From positions 1-64,000 of the forward strand of contig CAJOFL010000007.1 in NCBI GenBank assembly GCA_905233895.1: DNA of 64,000 nucleotides. The letters run 5' to 3'. Positions within the stretch are counted from its first letter, which is position 1, and every line of letters starts with the position of its first letter. Shown here piece by piece: positions 4,045-15,251 of this stretch. Under the pieces are notes generated by a model that did not search any database, was not told the DNA's origin, and worked only from the letters and a program-made list of their open reading frames with translations. Origin of the DNA: an uncultured Bacteroidales bacterium (GTDB lineage Bacteria; Bacteroidota; Bacteroidia; Bacteroidales; P3). A program made the position numbers and the translations under genes.

Positions 4045-4926
4045 TTAGTATTTTATCTTGAAATAGTCAAGCAGAACCTTGTAGTGGTCTTGCGCCGTCA
4101 AGCACGTGTCTCGTAAATATCCATTGACATGTCCCCAGTTCTGTATGCCACGGTAATAATACAAGCGCAACTCTTCGGTGATAATGAACGGCACGGTTCC
4201 TGCTTGCAGACATTGCCAGAACATCAACAGGCGACCGATGCGGCCGTTGCCGTCTTGGAATGGATGGATGCGCTCGAACTGTACATGGAAGTCAAGAATA
4301 TCGTCAAACTTGACCTGCTTCAACGTATTATATCGCACAATTAAGGTCTTCATCTTCTTGTGCACTTCCTCCGGCTTTGCAGTCTCTTCACCACCCACTT
4401 CATTTGCCAGCCGTTTGTAATTGCCCACAGCAAACCAATCTTTCTGGCTGTCGGAGGTGTTTGTCTTCAACAACCCATGCAGTTGCTTGATATGAGTCTC
4501 TGTTATCTTCTCTGTGGCATGGTCGATAATATAGTCGATGCAACGGAAATGATTGACTGTCTCCAAAATATCGTCGATGCGAGTGTTTTCGGTGGTGATG
4601 CCGAGAGTATTGGTTTCGAAGATATAACGGGTCTGCTCTTTTGTCAGACGGCTTCCTTCAATGTGGTTAGAGTTGTAGGTGAGATCAATCTGAGTCCGAT
4701 GATAGATTCCTCCTTTGAGCCTGATGTCCTTTTCTTCTATCAGTCTTGTCAGTAGCGGGGTGCATTTAGTCTTGTGCTTGACAGGCAATGGAGCGTCTAC
4801 AGGGATATTCCATGTCTTTCCCGTAAGGAAAGCCCCCTCTATTTTCCCTGATGCACAGTAATTTCGAGCGGTACGCTCACTGATACCGTATTTCTCAGCA
4901 TACTGAATAACAGACAGATATTCCAT
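4045..4926 (-). CDS. Fic family protein with N-terminal HTH domain
   Basis: A 293-residue protein. Residues 1-45 form a MerR/excisionase-like helix-turn-helix (YAEKYGISERTARNYCASG). The Fic core has the full catalytic motif HPFQDGNGRIGR (221-232). An inhibitory helix of the S/TxxxE(G/N) type precedes the core (SNHIEG, residues 86-91), which makes it a class II, self-inhibited Fic enzyme. Fic proteins usually transfer AMP from ATP to a target protein hydroxyl; the target here is unknown. Repeats of the form TATCGGCAAG surround its promoter, suggesting that the HTH autoregulates the gene. Confidence 0.92.
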   Translation of the reverse strand: MEYLSVIQYAEKYGISERTARNYCASGKIEGAFLTGKTWNIPVDAPLPVKHKTKCTPLLTRLIEEKDIRLKGGIYHRTQIDLTYNSNHIEGSRLTKEQTRYIFETNTLGITTENTRIDDILETVNHFRCIDYIIDHATEKITETHIKQLHGLLKTNTSDSQKDWFAVGNYKRLANEVGGEETAKPEEVHKKMKTLIVRYNTLKQVKFDDILDFHVQFERIHPFQDGNGRIGRLLMFWQCLQAGTVPFIITEELRLYYYRGIQNWGHVNGYLRDTCLTAQDHYKVLLDYFKIKY

Positions 4927-5758: not shown

Positions 5759-8320
5759 ATGAAAACAAATCAAATAACAAAAATATTTATATACATTTTT
5801 TTATTGCTGTTATTATATTTTACATCCGATATGCAAAACGAATGGGTGTTTGTGCATTGGGGGGAAACGATATCTAACATCAGCAACTATCTAAATGAAA
5901 ATGGTGATGTGAACACATTACTATCATTAGCAACCATATTTATAATGTTTTATTTCTCCTATATAAACCTTACTGATTATTCTAAAAAGTATTTTGGCCT
6001 ATATATTGTAATAGTTTTAGATTGCATATTATTGTTTTCAACTAAATATTGGGTATGGAACAGGTCCTTATTTGGAATAAAATGGTGGCTTTTATTGTTG
6101 TTGTCAATTACAGTTCCTGTCGTTGTCTCATTGATTTTCTCAAAGAAAAGCAAAAGAAGTTTTATAAAATGGTCTGAGCAAGGCATTCGGAATATTCAAT
6201 CAAAAGCAAAAGGCATAATAAATAAAAACTTTGAGAAATCTAATATAGACTCAATTGAGGAAGATGATATTTCAGGATTCTGCATAGATAATGTCGAAGA
6301 AAATACAACAGACCCGCATATTCGACAACCTTATGCAGATTTAATTATTAAGAAAGTCCTTGCGACCAAACAAAAAGACTCCTTGGCAATTGGTATTTCC
6401 GGAGATTGGGGGTCTGGAAAAACGCTTTTCCTTAAGCATATAGAAAACTCCATAGTACAACAACAGAAGAACAATAGTAATATTTTGATAGTCAATTTCT
6501 GTCCATGGGAGAGTTCAGATAGCAGGCAAATAATTGTGGATTTTTTTAACACATTATGCGAAAAGGTTGCTCCGCATTATTCGGCAGTAAAAAAGCCAAT
6601 ACTGAAATATGCCGAATTACTCACAATGGTGGATGCACCTAATTGGCTGGTTTCAGTATCAGAAATACTGGAAAAGAAAAAACATCCAACCATTAGCAAG
6701 CTGAAAGAAAGAATTTCTGTTCTTCTTTCCGAATTGGGTGGAAGGATTTTTGTCCTCATTGATGATGTCGACCGATTAAATGAACAAGAAATATATGAAA
6801 CATTTAAACTAATCCGAAATACAGCAGACTTTGCTAATGTTGTTTATATTGTTTCATATGATAAAGGATATGTCTGTGAGCAATTGACAGCTTTGGGTAT
6901 CAAATCATCAAATTTGTATATTGAGAAAATATTCCCTATAGAGCTTAAACTTCAGTGCCCTGAGCCGCACTTCCAGTCAAGATGTTTGGTTGAATCTTTT
7001 CAATTGATGACAAAGGATGAAATAATAAAGGAATCCGCAGTAAGTGTGATAAAGTATTACAATGATATAATTAGTAATATTCTTAACACATATCGCCAAG
7101 TAAAAAGATTTGCAAGGCAACTCGCATTAAACGTTGAAGCACTAAAAGAAAATAGACTATATAATGAAATTAGTTTTGAAGATTTTTTCTTGCTTGAGCT
7201 ACTTTACTATCACAATGCGGATCTGTATAATACGTTAAGGAGCAATCCAACGAAGATCTTGGTTGCAAAAAAAGATTCAAAATACAATATAAACATATTT
7301 ACCCTTCGCGCAGGATTTGATGGAGCTCCTGTTAATCCTGCTGAATTATTTCCCTACAAGGGAGTTCCTGTGGATGAACAAAGTGCTGTAATACTTAAAC
7401 AAATATTTAATAAACATACCAAATATAGAAAAGTCATACAATTGGCATATACAGAATCATACCATAAATACTTCTCATTTGGAATAAGCTTTGATCAAAT
7501 ATCACAAACGGAGCTTTATGGCTTCGTAAATGGGACAAAAGACATTGACCCACAGGTTGAAGAATGGTGTTTGAATCACAAGCACAATTCCCTTTATAGG
7601 TTATTAATATCTTATGTTCTAAATGATGATGTTTTTGTATGCAAAAGATATATAACTGTAGTTTTGTCATTTGTCGCACATTATCCTTCAAGTAAAATGG
7701 AGGTTGAAAGATTTCTTTCTGTGACGTTAAGGGCAAAAAAATATGATGAAAAAAAAATACAGGAATTACAACAATTCACAATTTCGGAACTAAAAAGATT
7801 CATTTATGGATTTGCTCATATTCAAGAATATGTACTTTTTTCTAAAGGACTCGCACGAATATTTCGTGATGAATATGAAGAATCTCAACGTACCGGAAAT
7901 GAAGGATATTCACTTGTGGGCAGCTGCGACAATGCCAAATCTTTGATAATAGAGAATGTTGAGACTTTCCTGTCAAAAAATCCAAATTCAGCAGATAATC
8001 TGTTTGATGACACTTGTGCAATTAACGCATTGGTGAAGGCTTCTGCTATTTCTTTGGACACAGACGGTGCGGAAGACTACCATATGTCTGTGCTTTTTGA
8101 CACTTTGCTCAGATACTTCTCTGTCCATAAAGGGCATAATAAACATAGAGCCGAAATGTATTTTGAAGTTAACATTTCGGATTCTCCGTCGGAAGAAGAA
8201 TTGGAAGATAGACAATTGGAAAGCAATAGACTGCTGGATCAAATGTTCACGAAACGGGAGAATTATATAAAGATATTAAAAGAATGTTTTGATGCCGGAA
8301 CTGACAAAGTCATGTCATAA
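5759..8320 (+). CDS. KAP family P-loop NTPase, membrane-anchored
   Basis: An 853-residue protein. Four hydrophobic segments lie near residues 9-22, 54-70, 80-95 and 109-127, with cytoplasmic sequence after them. The KAP NTPase domain follows: Walker A GDWGSGKT (215-222), the family-typical NFCPWESSD (246-254), and Walker B FVLIDDVDRL (331-340). The C-terminal 450 residues match no domain I recognise. KAP NTPases with inserted membrane helices include PifA, which blocks T7 growth, so a defence role is plausible but not shown. The gene is AT-rich, unlike the conserved genes around it, and lies alone on the plus strand of the island. Confidence 0.85.
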   Translation: MKTNQITKIFIYIFLLLLLYFTSDMQNEWVFVHWGETISNISNYLNENGDVNTLLSLATIFIMFYFSYINLTDYSKKYFGLYIVIVLDCILLFSTKYWVWNRSLFGIKWWLLLLLSITVPVVVSLIFSKKSKRSFIKWSEQGIRNIQSKAKGIINKNFEKSNIDSIEEDDISGFCIDNVEENTTDPHIRQPYADLIIKKVLATKQKDSLAIGISGDWGSGKTLFLKHIENSIVQQQKNNSNILIVNFCPWESSDSRQIIVDFFNTLCEKVAPHYSAVKKPILKYAELLTMVDAPNWLVSVSEILEKKKHPTISKLKERISVLLSELGGRIFVLIDDVDRLNEQEIYETFKLIRNTADFANVVYIVSYDKGYVCEQLTALGIKSSNLYIEKIFPIELKLQCPEPHFQSRCLVESFQLMTKDEIIKESAVSVIKYYNDIISNILNTYRQVKRFARQLALNVEALKENRLYNEISFEDFFLLELLYYHNADLYNTLRSNPTKILVAKKDSKYNINIFTLRAGFDGAPVNPAELFPYKGVPVDEQSAVILKQIFNKHTKYRKVIQLAYTESYHKYFSFGISFDQISQTELYGFVNGTKDIDPQVEEWCLNHKHNSLYRLLISYVLNDDVFVCKRYITVVLSFVAHYPSSKMEVERFLSVTLRAKKYDEKKIQELQQFTISELKRFIYGFAHIQEYVLFSKGLARIFRDEYEESQRTGNEGYSLVGSCDNAKSLIIENVETFLSKNPNSADNLFDDTCAINALVKASAISLDTDGAEDYHMSVLFDTLLRYFSVHKGHNKHRAEMYFEVNISDSPSEEELEDRQLESNRLLDQMFTKRENYIKILKECFDAGTDKVMS

Positions 8321-10779: not shown

Positions 10780-11298
10780 TTATTGGGGATTATATCCATC
10801 ATTTTCAAAATATGACAAAAGTCCGCTCATACGCTTCATATCGGTGTCATTGCGTTGTGACAAATAGACTATACATGAATAAACATGATTTTTATTTAGC
10901 CCCATTTTATTTGCTATTTGATAGCATAATTGAATTTCTTCAGTAGTACATTCTCCATCTGCAATCATAAGAGATACCACCCAAAGCAGATACCTTAACT
11001 TCTTTTTTTCTGATTTCGGATAAGGCAAACTATCCCATTCTCTCATTTTCTTTTCCATCATCACTTTCGGCAAGGCCAATCCGTCACCGACTAAAGCAAG
11101 GGAACCTGCCAAAGAGAACTTTCCGTCCTTTAGGTTGACATCACCGACGGTGTCTGTTAGTGCTTGCATCAGTGTTATTTCCTCATCAGAGTAGTTTCCG
11201 TCAGCAGATGCCATTTGCAGAAGGTCTGCGTACAAGCGTTGTTTCTCTCTTGTCGCTTTACCCTCTTTGATGTTCTGTAATAAAGATAAAAGTCCCAT
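10780..11298 (-). CDS. TerB-like domain protein
   Basis: A 172-residue, mostly helical soluble protein. It carries the two ADG-acidic motifs of the TerB/DjlA-N fold: ASADGNYSDEE and MIADGECTTEE. TerB-like domains bind metal ions and often sit in membrane-linked stress and phage-defence complexes. This gene starts a minus-strand operon and, unusually for this genome, has a Shine-Dalgarno-like AGGAG at 11308-11312, 9 nt before the ATG. Upstream is a long structured leader or separate RNA. Fold assignment is fairly good; function is unknown. Confidence 0.75.
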   Translation of the reverse strand: MGLLSLLQNIKEGKATREKQRLYADLLQMASADGNYSDEEITLMQALTDTVGDVNLKDGKFSLAGSLALVGDGLALPKVMMEKKMREWDSLPYPKSEKKKLRYLLWVVSLMIADGECTTEEIQLCYQIANKMGLNKNHVYSCIVYLSQRNDTDMKRMSGLLSYFENDGYNPQ

Positions 11299-11342
11299 TT
11301 ATAAAATCTCCTTTTTTGCCCAGGCACCAAGGTGATATTTTT

Positions 11343-11556
11343 TCAACAAAAGAAGCGTGGGCCTGTATGTCTCACATTGTACTTGAAGGTCGTCGGAAAC
11401 CTGAATTATCGAATGTAATAACAGCCCACGCTATCAGCGTGAAGCCATTATACAACCTTGATAATTCCACTTGAAAAGTTCCGACGTTCTCAAGTACAAG
11501 GAAGCATAACGCTTCTAATCATTAACTTTCGGCCTTGAGATTTCACCCTCAAAACC
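11343..11556 (-). ncRNA. Structured RNA (or long 5' leader) upstream of the TerB-like operon
   Basis: Nested complementary arms close in order: AGAAGCGT (11351-11358) with ACGCTTCT (11509-11516); TTGTACTTGA (11377-11386) with TCAAGTACAA (11490-11499); CGTCGGAA (11391-11398) with TTCCGACG (11479-11486); GAATTATC (11403-11410) with GATAATTC (11460-11467); and a terminal hairpin CACGCT-ATC-AGCGTG (11427-11441). An alternative pairing AGCGTGGGC (11354-11362) with GCCCACGCT (11424-11432) competes with the outer stem, so two folds are possible. A consensus minus-strand promoter lies just upstream. In the minus direction the outer stem is followed by TTTT, so it may end there as a discrete RNA or continue into the TerB-like gene. 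I do not recognise the family. Confidence 0.65.
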
Positions 11557-11561
11557 GACTG

Positions 11562-11592
11562 CAAAAATACACATTATTTCCAACATGGCAAA
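11562..11592 (-). promoter_or_regulatory. Consensus Bacteroidetes promoter for the structured RNA / TerB operon
   Basis: On the minus strand: TTTG (11592-11589), 19-nt spacer, TATTTTTG (11569-11562). This matches TTTG-N19-21-TAnnTTTG, and predicts a start near 11555, just before the structured region. Confidence 0.7.
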
Positions 11593-11845: not shown

Positions 11846-12535
11846 ATGGTTCAGTTTAATGATAAAAAAAACATAGCAGGATTTGTAAATTTTCTCCACA
11901 AAGATGTGTTAGGGAAAGAGTTGTCTTTATTATTGGATGAATACACGCAAAAATCCGATGTGTATGTTTTTAGTGGTATCATTAGAGATTTCTTATTAAA
12001 AAGAAAAAAAACAAGAGTTCGTGATGTTGATTTAGTTGTTACAGCAATTCCCGATGTTGATGCTTTGTCCAAAATTTGGAAAAAATATAAGGGGCAAAGA
12101 AATAGTTTTGGCGGGGCGAAGTTCCAATATGAAAATATTTCTGTAGATGTGTGGGAAATGGGGAAAACATGGGGTATTGTTGAAAAAAAAGAGGTGCCTA
12201 GTGTTGATGCATTGATAAACAGTTCTTTTTTTAATTGTACAGCAATTGTCTTTAATGTAAAAGAAAAGGTTTTTGTCTATAATAATCATTTTTCTGATTT
12301 TATAGAGAATAGGATCTTAGATATTGTTTACGAGAAAAACCCTAACCAAGCTTTATGTGTAGTAAACTCTTTCTTATACATGAAAAAATACGATGTTACA
12401 TTGTCTGATAGGCTTAAACAATGGATACGTGTTGTTTCGCAAAATATAAATGATTACGAAAAAGCACAAGAGACCCATTACCACAAAATAATATATAGTA
12501 ATAAAAAAATAGAAAAATTAATCAAACAATTATGA
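11846..12535 (+). CDS. Nucleotidyltransferase with poly(A) polymerase-head fold
   Basis: A 229-residue protein whose first 70 residues carry the signature of the polymerase-beta superfamily as seen in tRNA nucleotidyltransferase/poly(A) polymerase heads: VFSGIIRDFLL, then RDVDLVV with the catalytic Asp60 and Asp62. It lacks the long helical RNA-binding tail of CCA-adding enzymes, so it is a stand-alone head domain. The start ATG follows a good promoter. Its stop overlaps the start of the dGTPase gene by 4 nt (ATGA), so the two are translationally coupled. Such solitary nucleotidyltransferases are often toxins or defence effectors that modify tRNA or protein; this role is inference. Confidence 0.8.
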   Translation: MVQFNDKKNIAGFVNFLHKDVLGKELSLLLDEYTQKSDVYVFSGIIRDFLLKRKKTRVRDVDLVVTAIPDVDALSKIWKKYKGQRNSFGGAKFQYENISVDVWEMGKTWGIVEKKEVPSVDALINSSFFNCTAIVFNVKEKVFVYNNHFSDFIENRILDIVYEKNPNQALCVVNSFLYMKKYDVTLSDRLKQWIRVVSQNINDYEKAQETHYHKIIYSNKKIEKLIKQL

Positions 12536-14031
12536 GTGTTTTATACAAGATAGACTGGACTAAATATTTAAGCGACGGTAGGTATAGAAAGTCGGGGGAA
12601 AGGCCTGATGGAGGGGAATGGGACAAAAGGACTCCCTTTGAAAGTGATTATGGGAGAGTACTATTTAGTTCCGCTATTCGTAGAATGCATGATAAGACAC
12701 AGGTTATTCCTCTAACAAATGGAGATTCTGTTCTTACGAGACTTACTCACTCCATTCATGTGATGAATTTGGCAGAGTCACTCATAATAAATTATTGCCG
12801 TGATAATGATTTTAAGAAAAAATATGGTGATGAATGGGTGGAATTGATGGCTAATCTTGTTGCAGTATCGAAAGCCGCAGCATTTGTTCATGATGTCGGA
12901 AATCCTCCATTCGGGCATTTCGGAGAAACTGTTATACAAGATTATTTTGAAAGAAATAGAAAAATATTAAAAGAACAGTTCACATTGGAAGGCAGAAAAA
13001 ATCTTAATACAAAAATTATAGATTTTACACAATTTGATGGTAATGCCCAAGGTTTTCGCGTTCTTACACATCTACAATACATTGGGTCATTAGATGGATT
13101 GAACCTTACCTATGCCACATTAGGTGCTTATATGAAATATCCAAATATTAGTGATGGCGATAAATCATATAAACCATATATTGGAAATAAAAAACATGGC
13201 GTTTTCTATACGGAAAGAGACGTGTTTGAAAAAACCATTTTGGCCTGTAATCTAACGGCTAATAACAAAATAAAAAGACATCCATTATCTTTTATTGTGG
13301 AGGCGGCAGATTCTATCGCGTATCGAGTAATGGATATTGAGGATGGTTTTAATCTTGGGTGGTATTCGTTTGACGAAATGATAGAGCTCATAAATGGTTT
13401 TCTTAAAAAAAGAAGGGTAAAAAAGAGTATTTTTGAAATCATTGGGTTCAAAAGTAATGCAATTGACTTTTTGAAACTGAAATGTCAAGATGGTGCTGAT
13501 AAAAAAGCCATGGTTGATTTCAGAGTGGCATTGATACAATACTTGGTAAATTTAGCGAATAAAAACTTTAAGAAACATTTAAAAGAAATTGACTTTGGTG
13601 AATATTCAAATGAACTTATACAGGATGATGTTAACTGCGTAGAGAAAGCATTGGGTGATTTTACGAAACAATTAATATTCTCTCAACGTACAGTATCTTT
13701 GATGGAAATGACAGGTAAATCTGTCATAGAAGGGCTTCTCAATATTTTGGGTTCATATGCATTTAGTGATGACGAATCTTACCATAATAGGTTTAAAAGT
13801 ATAATTTCACCGTCGAGAATAGCAATAGCATATCATGAGAAAATGTATAATGATGGAGAGTGCACTGACCCTACTAAATTCTTGTTACATTCAAGCAAAA
13901 AATTGCGAGAATTTAAAATAGGAGATTTGTCTGCTTATGAAAAATGGAGACTGATTGTTGATTTTATATCTGGTATGACAGACAAGTTCGCCGTAGATTT
14001 ATATCAGCAATTGAGTGGGCAAAGAATATAG
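12532..14031 (+). CDS. dgt: dGTPase / dNTP triphosphohydrolase (HD superfamily)
   Basis: A 499-residue protein, close in length to E. coli Dgt (about 505). HD-fold metal ligands are visible: His73 (RLTHSIHV), His120-Asp121 (FVHDVGNPPFGHFGE) and Asp260 (EAADSIAYRVMD). FDGNAQ (168-173) is also typical of dGTPases. The enzyme removes triphosphate from dGTP, giving deoxyguanosine. Some phage-defence dGTPases deplete dNTPs during infection. Coupling to a nucleotidyltransferase by a 4-nt overlap and location in an AT-rich accessory island favour a defence role over housekeeping. The biochemical family is secure; the biological role is inferred. Confidence 0.9.
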   Translation: MSVLYKIDWTKYLSDGRYRKSGERPDGGEWDKRTPFESDYGRVLFSSAIRRMHDKTQVIPLTNGDSVLTRLTHSIHVMNLAESLIINYCRDNDFKKKYGDEWVELMANLVAVSKAAAFVHDVGNPPFGHFGETVIQDYFERNRKILKEQFTLEGRKNLNTKIIDFTQFDGNAQGFRVLTHLQYIGSLDGLNLTYATLGAYMKYPNISDGDKSYKPYIGNKKHGVFYTERDVFEKTILACNLTANNKIKRHPLSFIVEAADSIAYRVMDIEDGFNLGWYSFDEMIELINGFLKKRRVKKSIFEIIGFKSNAIDFLKLKCQDGADKKAMVDFRVALIQYLVNLANKNFKKHLKEIDFGEYSNELIQDDVNCVEKALGDFTKQLIFSQRTVSLMEMTGKSVIEGLLNILGSYAFSDDESYHNRFKSIISPSRIAIAYHEKMYNDGECTDPTKFLLHSSKKLREFKIGDLSAYEKWRLIVDFISGMTDKFAVDLYQQLSGQRI

Positions 14032-14192: not shown

Positions 14193-15251
14193 TCAAATGT
14201 CCATGTAATTCTCCCAGCGCATTTGGGCGGCCTCCAGGCCTTTGTGCAGCTGGCGTTGCAGCAGTTCTTTGGAGGGCAGCTCGGTCATATACTGCGCCAC
14301 CTTGATGCCGGATTTGTCGAGTTGCAGCAGCTCTATTTGCTCGTCACCACCTTCGGTGCAGAGCAAAAGACCGAGGGGCTGCTCCTCGCCAGCCTCCATC
14401 TCGTGGGCTTCGAGCCAACGCAGATACAACTCCATTTGGCCTTTATACTGCGCCTTGAATTTGCCAAGTTTCAAGTCGATGGCTATCAGACGGTGCAACC
14501 TGCGATGGTAGAAAAGCAGGTCGAGGTAGAAGTCCTCGCCGTCGATAATCATACGCTTCTGCCGCTCGACGAAAGTGAATCCATTGCCCAACTCCAAGAT
14601 GAACTGCTCCAGATGCGCCACCAAGCTATCTTCTAGACTCTTCTCGCTATACATCCCCTTGAGACCAGTAAACTCAAGGAAGTAGGGGCTCTTGAAAACC
14701 AGGTCGGGGGTGAGGACATTGTTCTCCCGCAGTTCCGTCAGCTCCTGCTTGATCAATTCGTCGGGCTTCGTCGCAATGGCGGTGCGCTCGTAGAGCATGC
14801 CGTCAATCTCCTTGCGAAGCTGACGAATAGACCATCTTTCGGAAGCAGCCAACGTCAGGTAGAATTCCCGTTGAAGGTCGTTCTTCAAGGGAATAACCTC
14901 TATAAAATGAGACCATTGCAATTGTCGCGACAGCGTCGCGACAATTTGGAATTCAGGAAACAGGGATGCAAATTGCATCATACGACGAATACTTTTCACA
15001 TCGAACCCCTTTGTTCCAAACTCTTCCTGCAATTGTCGCGACACCGTCGCGACAATTTGTTTGCCGTATTCGGCGCGCTCGTTTCCAAGTACTTCGCGAT
15101 TAATACGCTCGCCGATATGCCAATACATCAGAGTGAGTTCGGCATTGACATTGACGGCGACGCGGTTGCGCGTCTGGTTGATTATCTGCCGCAGGTCGTC
15201 GACCAACGGCATAAGATTGCTGTTCTTTTGTATGGTTATACTGTCTGCCAT
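14193..15251 (-). CDS. DUF1016 / YhcG-type PDDEXK nuclease-domain protein
   Basis: A 352-residue protein. The N-terminal DUF1016_N part includes YWHIGERI and the paired QIVATxSRQLQ segments. The C-terminal part has the nuclease-like core: DGEDFYLDLLFYHRRL followed by LIAIDLK, matching the D...(E/D)xK pattern of PDDEXK enzymes. Members are common in restriction and defence neighbourhoods and some act on branched or phage DNA; the exact role is unknown. Two near-identical palindromic DNA segments inside the gene encode the two repeated peptides. A -7 box lies 29 nt upstream. Confidence 0.88.
   Translation of the reverse strand: MADSITIQKNSNLMPLVDDLRQIINQTRNRVAVNVNAELTLMYWHIGERINREVLGNERAEYGKQIVATVSRQLQEEFGTKGFDVKSIRRMMQFASLFPEFQIVATLSRQLQWSHFIEVIPLKNDLQREFYLTLAASERWSIRQLRKEIDGMLYERTAIATKPDELIKQELTELRENNVLTPDLVFKSPYFLEFTGLKGMYSEKSLEDSLVAHLEQFILELGNGFTFVERQKRMIIDGEDFYLDLLFYHRRLHRLIAIDLKLGKFKAQYKGQMELYLRWLEAHEMEAGEEQPLGLLLCTEGGDEQIELLQLDKSGIKVAQYMTELPSKELLQRQLHKGLEAAQMRWENYMDI
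14919..15059. repeat. Two in-gene copies of a 30-bp palindromic repeat
   Basis: The copies at 14919-14948 and 15030-15059 differ by one base. Each contains ATTGTCGCGAC and its complement GTCGCGACAAT separated by 3 nt, so each can form an 11-bp hairpin or cruciform. They encode the two QIVATxSRQLQ segments of the DUF1016 protein. Confidence 0.75.

Follow-up and report, generated by a model that had tools for sequence, protein, structure and literature searches.

The window is a stretch of 64,000 nucleotides from an uncultured Bacteroidales bacterium (assembly GCA_905233895.1, contig CAJOFL010000007.1). Judged from the predicted genes, the part between positions 4045 and 15251 looks like a defence-rich neighbourhood, with genes for Fic (4045-4926), a KAP NTPase (5759-8320), a YhcG nuclease (14193-15251) and a dGTPase-like protein (12532-14031), the latter preceded by a gene (11846-12535) whose 229-aa product matches nothing in Pfam or PADLOC. 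Within this neighbourhood, the minus strand contains a structured RNA of 165 nt (11515-11351), with a promoter of the Bacteroidota type upstream and a TerB-like gene 52 nt beyond its end (Table 1). The folded RNA is probably the 5′ leader of an mRNA, kept in Bacteroidia with two different folds, and an undescribed gene switch. A coding function for the core was rejected, as the ORF listing of the window contains no ORF of ≥70 aa over it.

Table 1. Features of the leader and of the genes behind it (window coordinates).
Feature	Position	Strand	Basis or role
-33 element TTTG, Bacteroidota-type promoter	11589-11592	-	Sequence
-7 element TATTTTTG	11562-11569	-	Sequence; transcription would start a few nt downstream
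5′ hairpin at putative transcript start	11530-11558	-	Predicted fold
Structured core, 165 nt	11351-11515	-	Covariance model R1 match end to end, 124.5 bits (the core is one of R1's own training sequences)
Strand a (GAAGCGUUAUGC)	11504-11515	-	S1: pairs with d and beyond; S2: pairs with b′
P3 left strand (P3L)	11479-11486	-	S1: stem; S2: apical loop of left hairpin
Strand b′ (GUAUAAUGGCUUCA)	11440-11453	-	S1: pairs with c; S2: pairs with a
Strand c (GCGUGGGCUGU)	11421-11431	-	S1: hairpin P5; S2: pairs with d
P3 right strand (P3R)	11391-11398	-	S2: apical loop region of right hairpin
Strand d (ACAGGCCCACGC)	11355-11366	-	Contested by a (S1), c (S2) and, partly, the downstream loop
Left half	11422-11515	-	Alone folds with -34.0 kcal/mol, z -4.56
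Right half	11351-11433	-	Alone folds with -28.2 kcal/mol, z -4.51
Downstream loop GGUGCCUG	11321-11328	-	Complementary, with one bulge, to CAGGCCC in strand d
Weak downstream hairpin	11306-11336	-	Predicted fold; also pairs part of the Shine-Dalgarno sequence (CCUU with AAGG)
TerB-like gene, 172 aa, first behind leader	10780-11298	-	Pfam TerB, 5.1e-7
Second gene, 181 aa	10222-10767	-	No Pfam family
Third gene, 588 aa	8428-10194	-	No Pfam family

The five nested stems that a first-pass annotation had described in this domain are all exact: 8 bp (11509-11516/11351-11358), 10 bp (11490-11499/11377-11386), 8 bp (11479-11486/11391-11398), 8 bp (11460-11467/11403-11410) and 6 bp (11436-11441/11427-11432). 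The same is true of a 9-bp alternative pairing (11354-11362/11424-11432), which had been presented as a competitor of the outer stem and belongs to a complete second fold. The minus-strand promoter is also present as claimed (TTTG-N19-TATTTTTG), and the TerB-like gene does follow, with its ATG (11298) 52 nt past the core instead of the 40-50 nt given. The Shine-Dalgarno sequence had been called unusual, but AAGGAG (11308-11313) is ordinary in form; sites of this type are uncommon in Bacteroidota. The domain had not been recognized as a retron RNA, and the Pfam scan of ten proteins of the window showed no reverse transcriptase.

Folding of the minus strand between 11340 and 11570 gave -85.6 kcal/mol, versus -54.75 ± 4.26 kcal/mol for 200 dinucleotide shuffles (z -7.24), none of which equalled the native value. 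The plus strand of the same region folds equally well (z -7.2), because the element is a near-palindrome. Since the folding energy cannot assign the strand, the promoter, the position of the gene and covariation were used instead.

The RNA belongs to a family with several members in its own genome, where a second copy is 86% identical over 245 nt, i.e. 14% different, and a third one, missed by BLAST, was found by a covariance model. With model R1, built from 60 sequences, this genome yielded three full copies and, at E 3.7e-7 to 1.4e-3, another three that are weak. Counting the own genome, R1 matches occurred in 50 of 148 genomes of the order (E ≤1e-3; 1-17 per genome) and in 73 of 396 genomes of the class (E ≤1e-4), and in a sample of 148 genomes of the phylum the 11 genomes with matches were the own one and ten of the same class. 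Sequence matches (E ≤1e-5) were obtained in 28 of 61 genomes, the own one included, many of them covering the promoter part alone; about a dozen of the 61 contained copies spanning most of the element, which mostly end a few bases from its 3′ end. A gapped pattern of conserved bases, designed after the examination of 33 stretches with copies, matched at least 118 stretches of a species-genome collection and 3 stretches of viral contigs. The 80 titles among the matches listed for the species-genome collection were all Bacteroidota, or groups that we take to be Bacteroidota. The pattern-matched loci amounted to 150, of which 142 were distinct (larger loci and the window). Cultured carriers are Bacteroides gallinarum DSM 18171, Phocaeicola coprophilus, Phocaeicola sartorii, Butyricimonas synergistica and Leyella lascolaii, and eight genomes of named records had 5-10 R1 matches each (E ≤1e-4, weak ones counted).

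The leader was also found in seven records of a plasmid collection and in one phage record. In the Bacteroides uniformis plasmid pBUN1 (NZ_AP019725.1), a copy (L359:2501-2753; loci carry L numbers) stands directly before the class A β-lactamase gene blaMUN-1; the leader travels in this case with plasmid cargo. PMC10989005 reportedly deals with the transfer of this gene between phyla. In a Parabacteroides distasonis plasmid record (L360:2724-4681), the leader is followed by a gene for a DarT-domain protein and then by a DUF6939/NADAR-like gene, a pair that, from its domains, is likely a toxin-antitoxin system. Another observation concerns L050 (8001-8189) and L049, seemingly one locus in two genomes: one of the two leaders is without most of its left half, and the gene is retained.

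Judged by its position between predicted promoter boxes and ORFs, the RNA is a 5′ leader. A same-strand ORF of ≥40 aa starts no more than 120 nt away in 132 of the 142 distinct copies (the other 10 have none within 120 nt), versus 41 of 142 in a divergent control on the other side. The -7 box TAnnTTTG is found upstream of 126 of 137 copies, at a median of 42 nt before the core; after shuffling of the upstream sequence its frequency was 7%, and downstream it occurred in 9 of 137. A TTG at the -33 spacing, 17-23 nt from the -7 box on its upstream side, was seen in just 62 copies. An own promoter box and a same-strand ORF at conserved spacing are the marks of a cis-regulatory leader. The first-pass annotation had offered two roles for the RNA, a regulatory leader, which agrees with its position, and a stand-alone partner of the TerB/dGTPase island, which was rejected because the neighbours differ from copy to copy, TerB being just one of many unrelated genes behind the leader.

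The genes behind the leader appear to encode mostly unrelated, small, exported proteins. The 137 downstream proteins were grouped in 91 clusters, 67 of them singletons. A hydrophobic N-terminus, called by a crude hydropathy rule, was present in 77 of 104 downstream proteins of 100-350 aa; among the remaining ORFs of these loci the proportion was 184 of 594 (p 2.6e-16). In the family scan, which covered 120 of the 137 proteins (set A2), no Pfam or NCBIfam family reached more than 3 of the 120 among the 25 commonest listed of 77 and of 53 families; those listed include PorV, TerB, FISUMP domains and HxsD-like, with no reverse transcriptase among them, and PADLOC families matched one downstream protein each. 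A single ligand theme was looked for and none was seen among the listed families. The largest cluster consists of 16 of the 137, small exported-looking proteins with the motif FLGIPVDGTK..MIQKLKAKGF (e.g., L145:2838-3422 and L185:678-1352), and no Pfam family was found in the two members scanned. Relatives of the 588-aa third gene of the window were recognized by eye, from their N-termini, behind the leader copies L037, L041, L045, L049 and L050.

The idea of a structured RNA depended on covariation among homologues, and this is present; within these alignments, it supports two folds. The first one, S1, is one long rod composed of helices P1-P5. It was evaluated in alignment A1, made of 60 of 64 non-redundant copies (L129, L137, L162 and L175, of 167-183 nt, were left out before aligning), and in alignment A4, made of 104 covariance-model hits at E ≤1e-6 from 99 sources, with a model built from A1 (the weak own-genome copies L248 and L249 lie outside A4). 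In A1, 94.5% of the cells of S1 were paired, versus 36-47% when the strands were slid, and there were 295 double-change cells versus 94.7 ± 10.3 in shuffles, a null that, like the others used for pairing counts, ignores the relatedness of the copies. In A4, an alignment fitted to S1, the corresponding values were 92.8% versus 35-47%, and 915 double-change cells versus 267 ± 16. Helices P1b, P2, P3 and P5 covary, and P3 is nearly perfect, with 99.4% of its cells paired in A1 by pairs of the types GC, AU, CG and UA. G-U pairs are present among the copies. Since the search pattern had fixed GAAGCRTT, GCGTGGRCTG and CCACGCTT in A1, helix P1a and the pairing c:d were uninformative there and were tested on A4 instead, where P1a displayed 41 double-change cells versus 10.7 ± 2.5. 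Helix P4 is apparent in single-sequence folds, but stays outside the pair counts because the alignment is poor in that region.

The second fold, S2, consists of two hairpins side by side, the left one formed by a:b′ plus inner helices and the right one by c:d plus an inner helix. As S1 and S2 share the strands a, b′, c and d, they are mutually exclusive in one molecule. The 9-bp alternative pairing extends to 11 pairs and constitutes c:d, and the competition that the first-pass annotation had proposed is borne out by compensatory changes among the 104 model hits, where c:d was not fixed by the pattern. In them, c:d was 90.2% paired versus 27-53% when slid, with 49 double-change cells versus 19 ± 4, and none of 500 shuffles equalled it on any of five measures. 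Changes on both sides affected 9 of the 11 pairs, for instance G-C to A-U in L293, L309, L311, L322, L217 and L219, and U-A to C-G in L337. The whole of S2 on the 60 copies of A1, including c:d with six of its pairs fixed by the search pattern, was 89.5% paired versus 37-50%, with 152 double-change cells versus 51 ± 11, again with 0/500 shuffles on all five measures. By helices, the cells paired in A1 were 95.1% for a:b′ (in strand a, the pattern fixed just the first eight bases), 88.8% for f, 85.4% for g and 78.7% for e. Whether scored by cells paired, by double-change cells or by covariation, these four helices were equalled by no slide and by 0/500 shuffles; weaker were the pair-type counts of f and g, reached by 27/500 and 33/500 shuffles, and in e the number of double-change pairs, reached by 210/500. 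A further helix, h (AAGG:CCUU), failed its count test.

The halves of the RNA were also folded alone. Hairpin a:b′ formed in 102 of 104 left halves and c:d in 104 of 104 right halves, and z was below -2 in 74 of 104 left halves (30 fall short) and in 102 of 104 right halves. The two hairpins of S2 are not fully independent, because the complementary arms of S1 make the hairpin of one arm partly imply that of the other. When c:d was forced in the leader of the window, the complete other fold was obtained, with -81.0 versus -91.7 kcal/mol (10.7 less stable), and among the copies S2 without kissing was at the median 14.3 kcal/mol less stable than the full fold. The hairpin loops of S2 are complementary over 8 nt, corresponding to P3L and P3R, so that P3 can be available in both folds, as a stem in S1 and as a putative loop-loop contact in S2. 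A role in both folds fits with P3 being the best-kept helix.

Concerning the connection of the leader with the gene, 96 of the 142 leaders have a good downstream partner for part of strand d, a matching loop whose median distance is 24 nt from the core and equally 24 nt from the ATG that follows; the other 46 lack one. The mean pairing score was 5.20 with cognate partners and 4.09 ± 0.08 with re-dealt partners (n=142); with the model hits, and the register shifted by one, it was 4.66 versus 3.84 ± 0.09 (n=104). A closing stem of ≥4 bp was present in the loop hairpin of 69 of the 96 partnered leaders, versus a mean of 44.7 and a maximum of 56. In the fold models, the downstream pairing with strand d is possible in S1 and excluded in S2. 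The leader has in this way the structural trait of a riboswitch, two exclusive folds one of which touches the expression platform in those 96 of 142 leaders. The partner in the window needs one bulge, and its downstream hairpin does not exceed shuffles in stability (61-nt stretch, z +0.85). Other elements are seen in the same region: a GTTGCGCCCGACAC-type element before the ATG in some leaders, and a conserved one like GTTGYRCCCGACACRAATWAGGG just before the ATG in many, among them L037, L039, L043, L044, L052, L060, L069 and L163, for which no Rfam family was found in the copies scanned.

No known RNA had been recognized in the first-pass annotation, and the searches agree with this. No Rfam 15 family reached its gathering cut-off over the core in the window, in 18 diverse loci or in 20 class-level loci, nor was there a match to the domain at relaxed E-value (10, 9 and 14 sources). 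The cis-regulatory DUF805b RNA (RF02914, 35 nt) is found in some of the same leaders, between the domain and the start codon, at L012:1753-1787 (L012 equals L040), L014:1441-1475 (L014 equals L042) and L228:3039-3074, and it is absent from the leader of the window at its cut-off of 35.6 bits. In 15 genomes DUF805b had 49 matches, and by coordinates at least 9 of them, including at least 4 of the 22 above the cut-off, directly follow a leader copy. It is, however, a separate 35-nt module with no overlap with the 165-nt domain, and the other 40 matches are without a listed copy just upstream. DUF805b may be a general start-region module that is joined to several upstream leaders.

The leader belongs to none of the families tested, and it resembles pseudoknot-reading riboswitches and kissing RNAs. 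Riboswitches of the preQ1-II type are read out via a pseudoknot at the start region. The likeness to them is in outline, as an upstream domain competes for the pairing of a strand near the start codon; in the present case the whole leader domain would refold, beyond the expression platform, in a candidate switch without a known ligand. The mRNA hok, CopA/CopT and the retroviral dimer site are bistable mRNAs or kissing-to-duplex RNAs, and the leader shares with them metastable local hairpins, complementary loops and a later extended duplex. In the present case both partners lie in one leader, which is common to unrelated genes, and kissing is an inference. The sRNAs FopS and GibS, to the extent that they are described in excerpts of PMC11697453, are also a multi-copy family of Bacteroidaceae with canonical Bacteroides promoters. 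FopS consists, according to the same excerpts, of a single-stranded 5′ stretch and a terminator hairpin, and this description sets both sRNAs apart from a paired 165-nt domain before an ORF. Word searches of the literature, including parts of the texts of PMC2864571, PMC7366714, PMC10994844, PMC11697453 and PMC8040213, gave no recognized description of the leader, and the main texts of PMC8632094 and PMC11109978 contain no Bacteroides-type name. PMC8040213, as far as its excerpts go, provides 3161 automated candidates, which may include a piece of the leader RNA.

Taking all this into account, we consider it somewhat more likely than not, from the sequence comparisons, that the RNA is a 5′-untranslated leader with its own promoter, which regulates the gene behind it by means of two complete folds. 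During its synthesis, each half would fold locally, the left one into hairpin a:b′ and the right one into hairpin c:d, their loops containing P3L and P3R respectively, which gives fold S2. The complementary 8-nt loops would kiss, and strand exchange would lead to the S1 rod. In S1, strand d would be paired with a, leaving free the CAGxxCC segment of d, which could pair, in S1 only, with the loop of the small hairpin ~24 nt before the start codon, forming a pseudoknot. Most likely, the pseudoknotted state would alter the access of the ribosome to the start region; in the copy of the window, with a hairpin over part of the Shine-Dalgarno sequence, it would lower translation. A shared signal (a metabolite, an ion, temperature or an RNA-binding protein) would set the balance of the folds for a regulon of mostly exported proteins. 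It is a more tentative proposal, to which we give somewhat less than even chances, that this RNA is class-wide, that selection maintains two incompatible folds over all of its 165 nt, which interconvert via intramolecular kissing much as antisense RNAs pair, and that accessory genes, mostly for exported proteins and some of them plasmid cargo, use it as a portable switch of their translation.

Other modes of action have to be weighed. The leader could be a transcription attenuator, in which a stem ending in d (a:d or c:d) plus a U-rich tract terminates, freeing an RNA of ~200 nt, and the switch sets the read-through. The sequence after the core points in this direction, with T at a frequency of 0.53-0.74 at positions 2-7 after CCACGCTT (n=142), a mean of 7.4 U among the 10 nt that follow ACGC (last P1a bases included; 104 model hits) and some copies that resemble stand-alone RNAs; yet in Bacteroidales the U-tract is short and broken, and transcription would stop ahead of the downstream hairpin and pseudoknot. 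In S1 as in S2 a stem abuts the U-tract, which gives no obvious reason for termination to depend on the fold; we regard attenuation as unlikely. A little less doubtful is a strict small-molecule riboswitch with the P3/P4 region as ligand pocket. Second-messenger riboswitches stand before unrelated genes, in many copies and class-wide, as this leader does, and many columns of the alignment are invariant, some of them fixed by the search pattern; nevertheless, pairing in one or other fold accounts for much of the conservation, and no ligand is suggested by the downstream families (25 commonest of 77 and of 53). The leader could also be bound by a shared RNA-binding protein or sRNA, in which case envelope proteins would form a post-transcriptional regulon and the stand-alone copies would act as sponges; this seems as improbable to us as attenuation. 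In its favour are the enrichment of hydrophobic N-termini downstream and the stand-alone-like copies, and Bacteroides possesses RbpB, a global RNA-binding protein according to excerpts of PMC11697453, but such binding does not by itself require two conserved folds. Attenuation, a strict riboswitch and a protein-binding regulon are not exclusive, being compatible with one another.

Very improbable is, finally, that the element is a mobile repeat of the MITE type or a palindrome acting at the DNA level, placed before genes by chance. It is true that it is a near-palindrome with several copies per genome, some of them on plasmid records, and with matches near contig ends in fragmented genomes, although these come partly from genomes of 700-990 contigs. 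Against such an origin, the second copy of the own genome is already 14% different and the third is beyond the reach of BLAST; besides, the copies keep their distance to the promoter box and the ORF, on one strand, and contain G-U pairs. A side observation concerns the copies L238, L240-L242 and L244-L246 of other class members, where a U-run comes right after the core, the ORF is 91-276 nt away and there is no pseudoknot partner; these traits make stand-alone RNAs possible, so that those copies may represent a second use. The genes behind them are, by eye, SusC-like (L240-L242) or sigma-factor-like (L244 and L246).

Bacteroidota dominate the gut and, to our knowledge, few cis-regulatory RNAs are known in them. 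If the leader is, as proposed, a switch between two complete folds, it would give access to a regulon whose exported proteins are largely unknown, and it would be a rare natural case of a bistable RNA recorded by evolution. The cultured carriers make the leader testable now.
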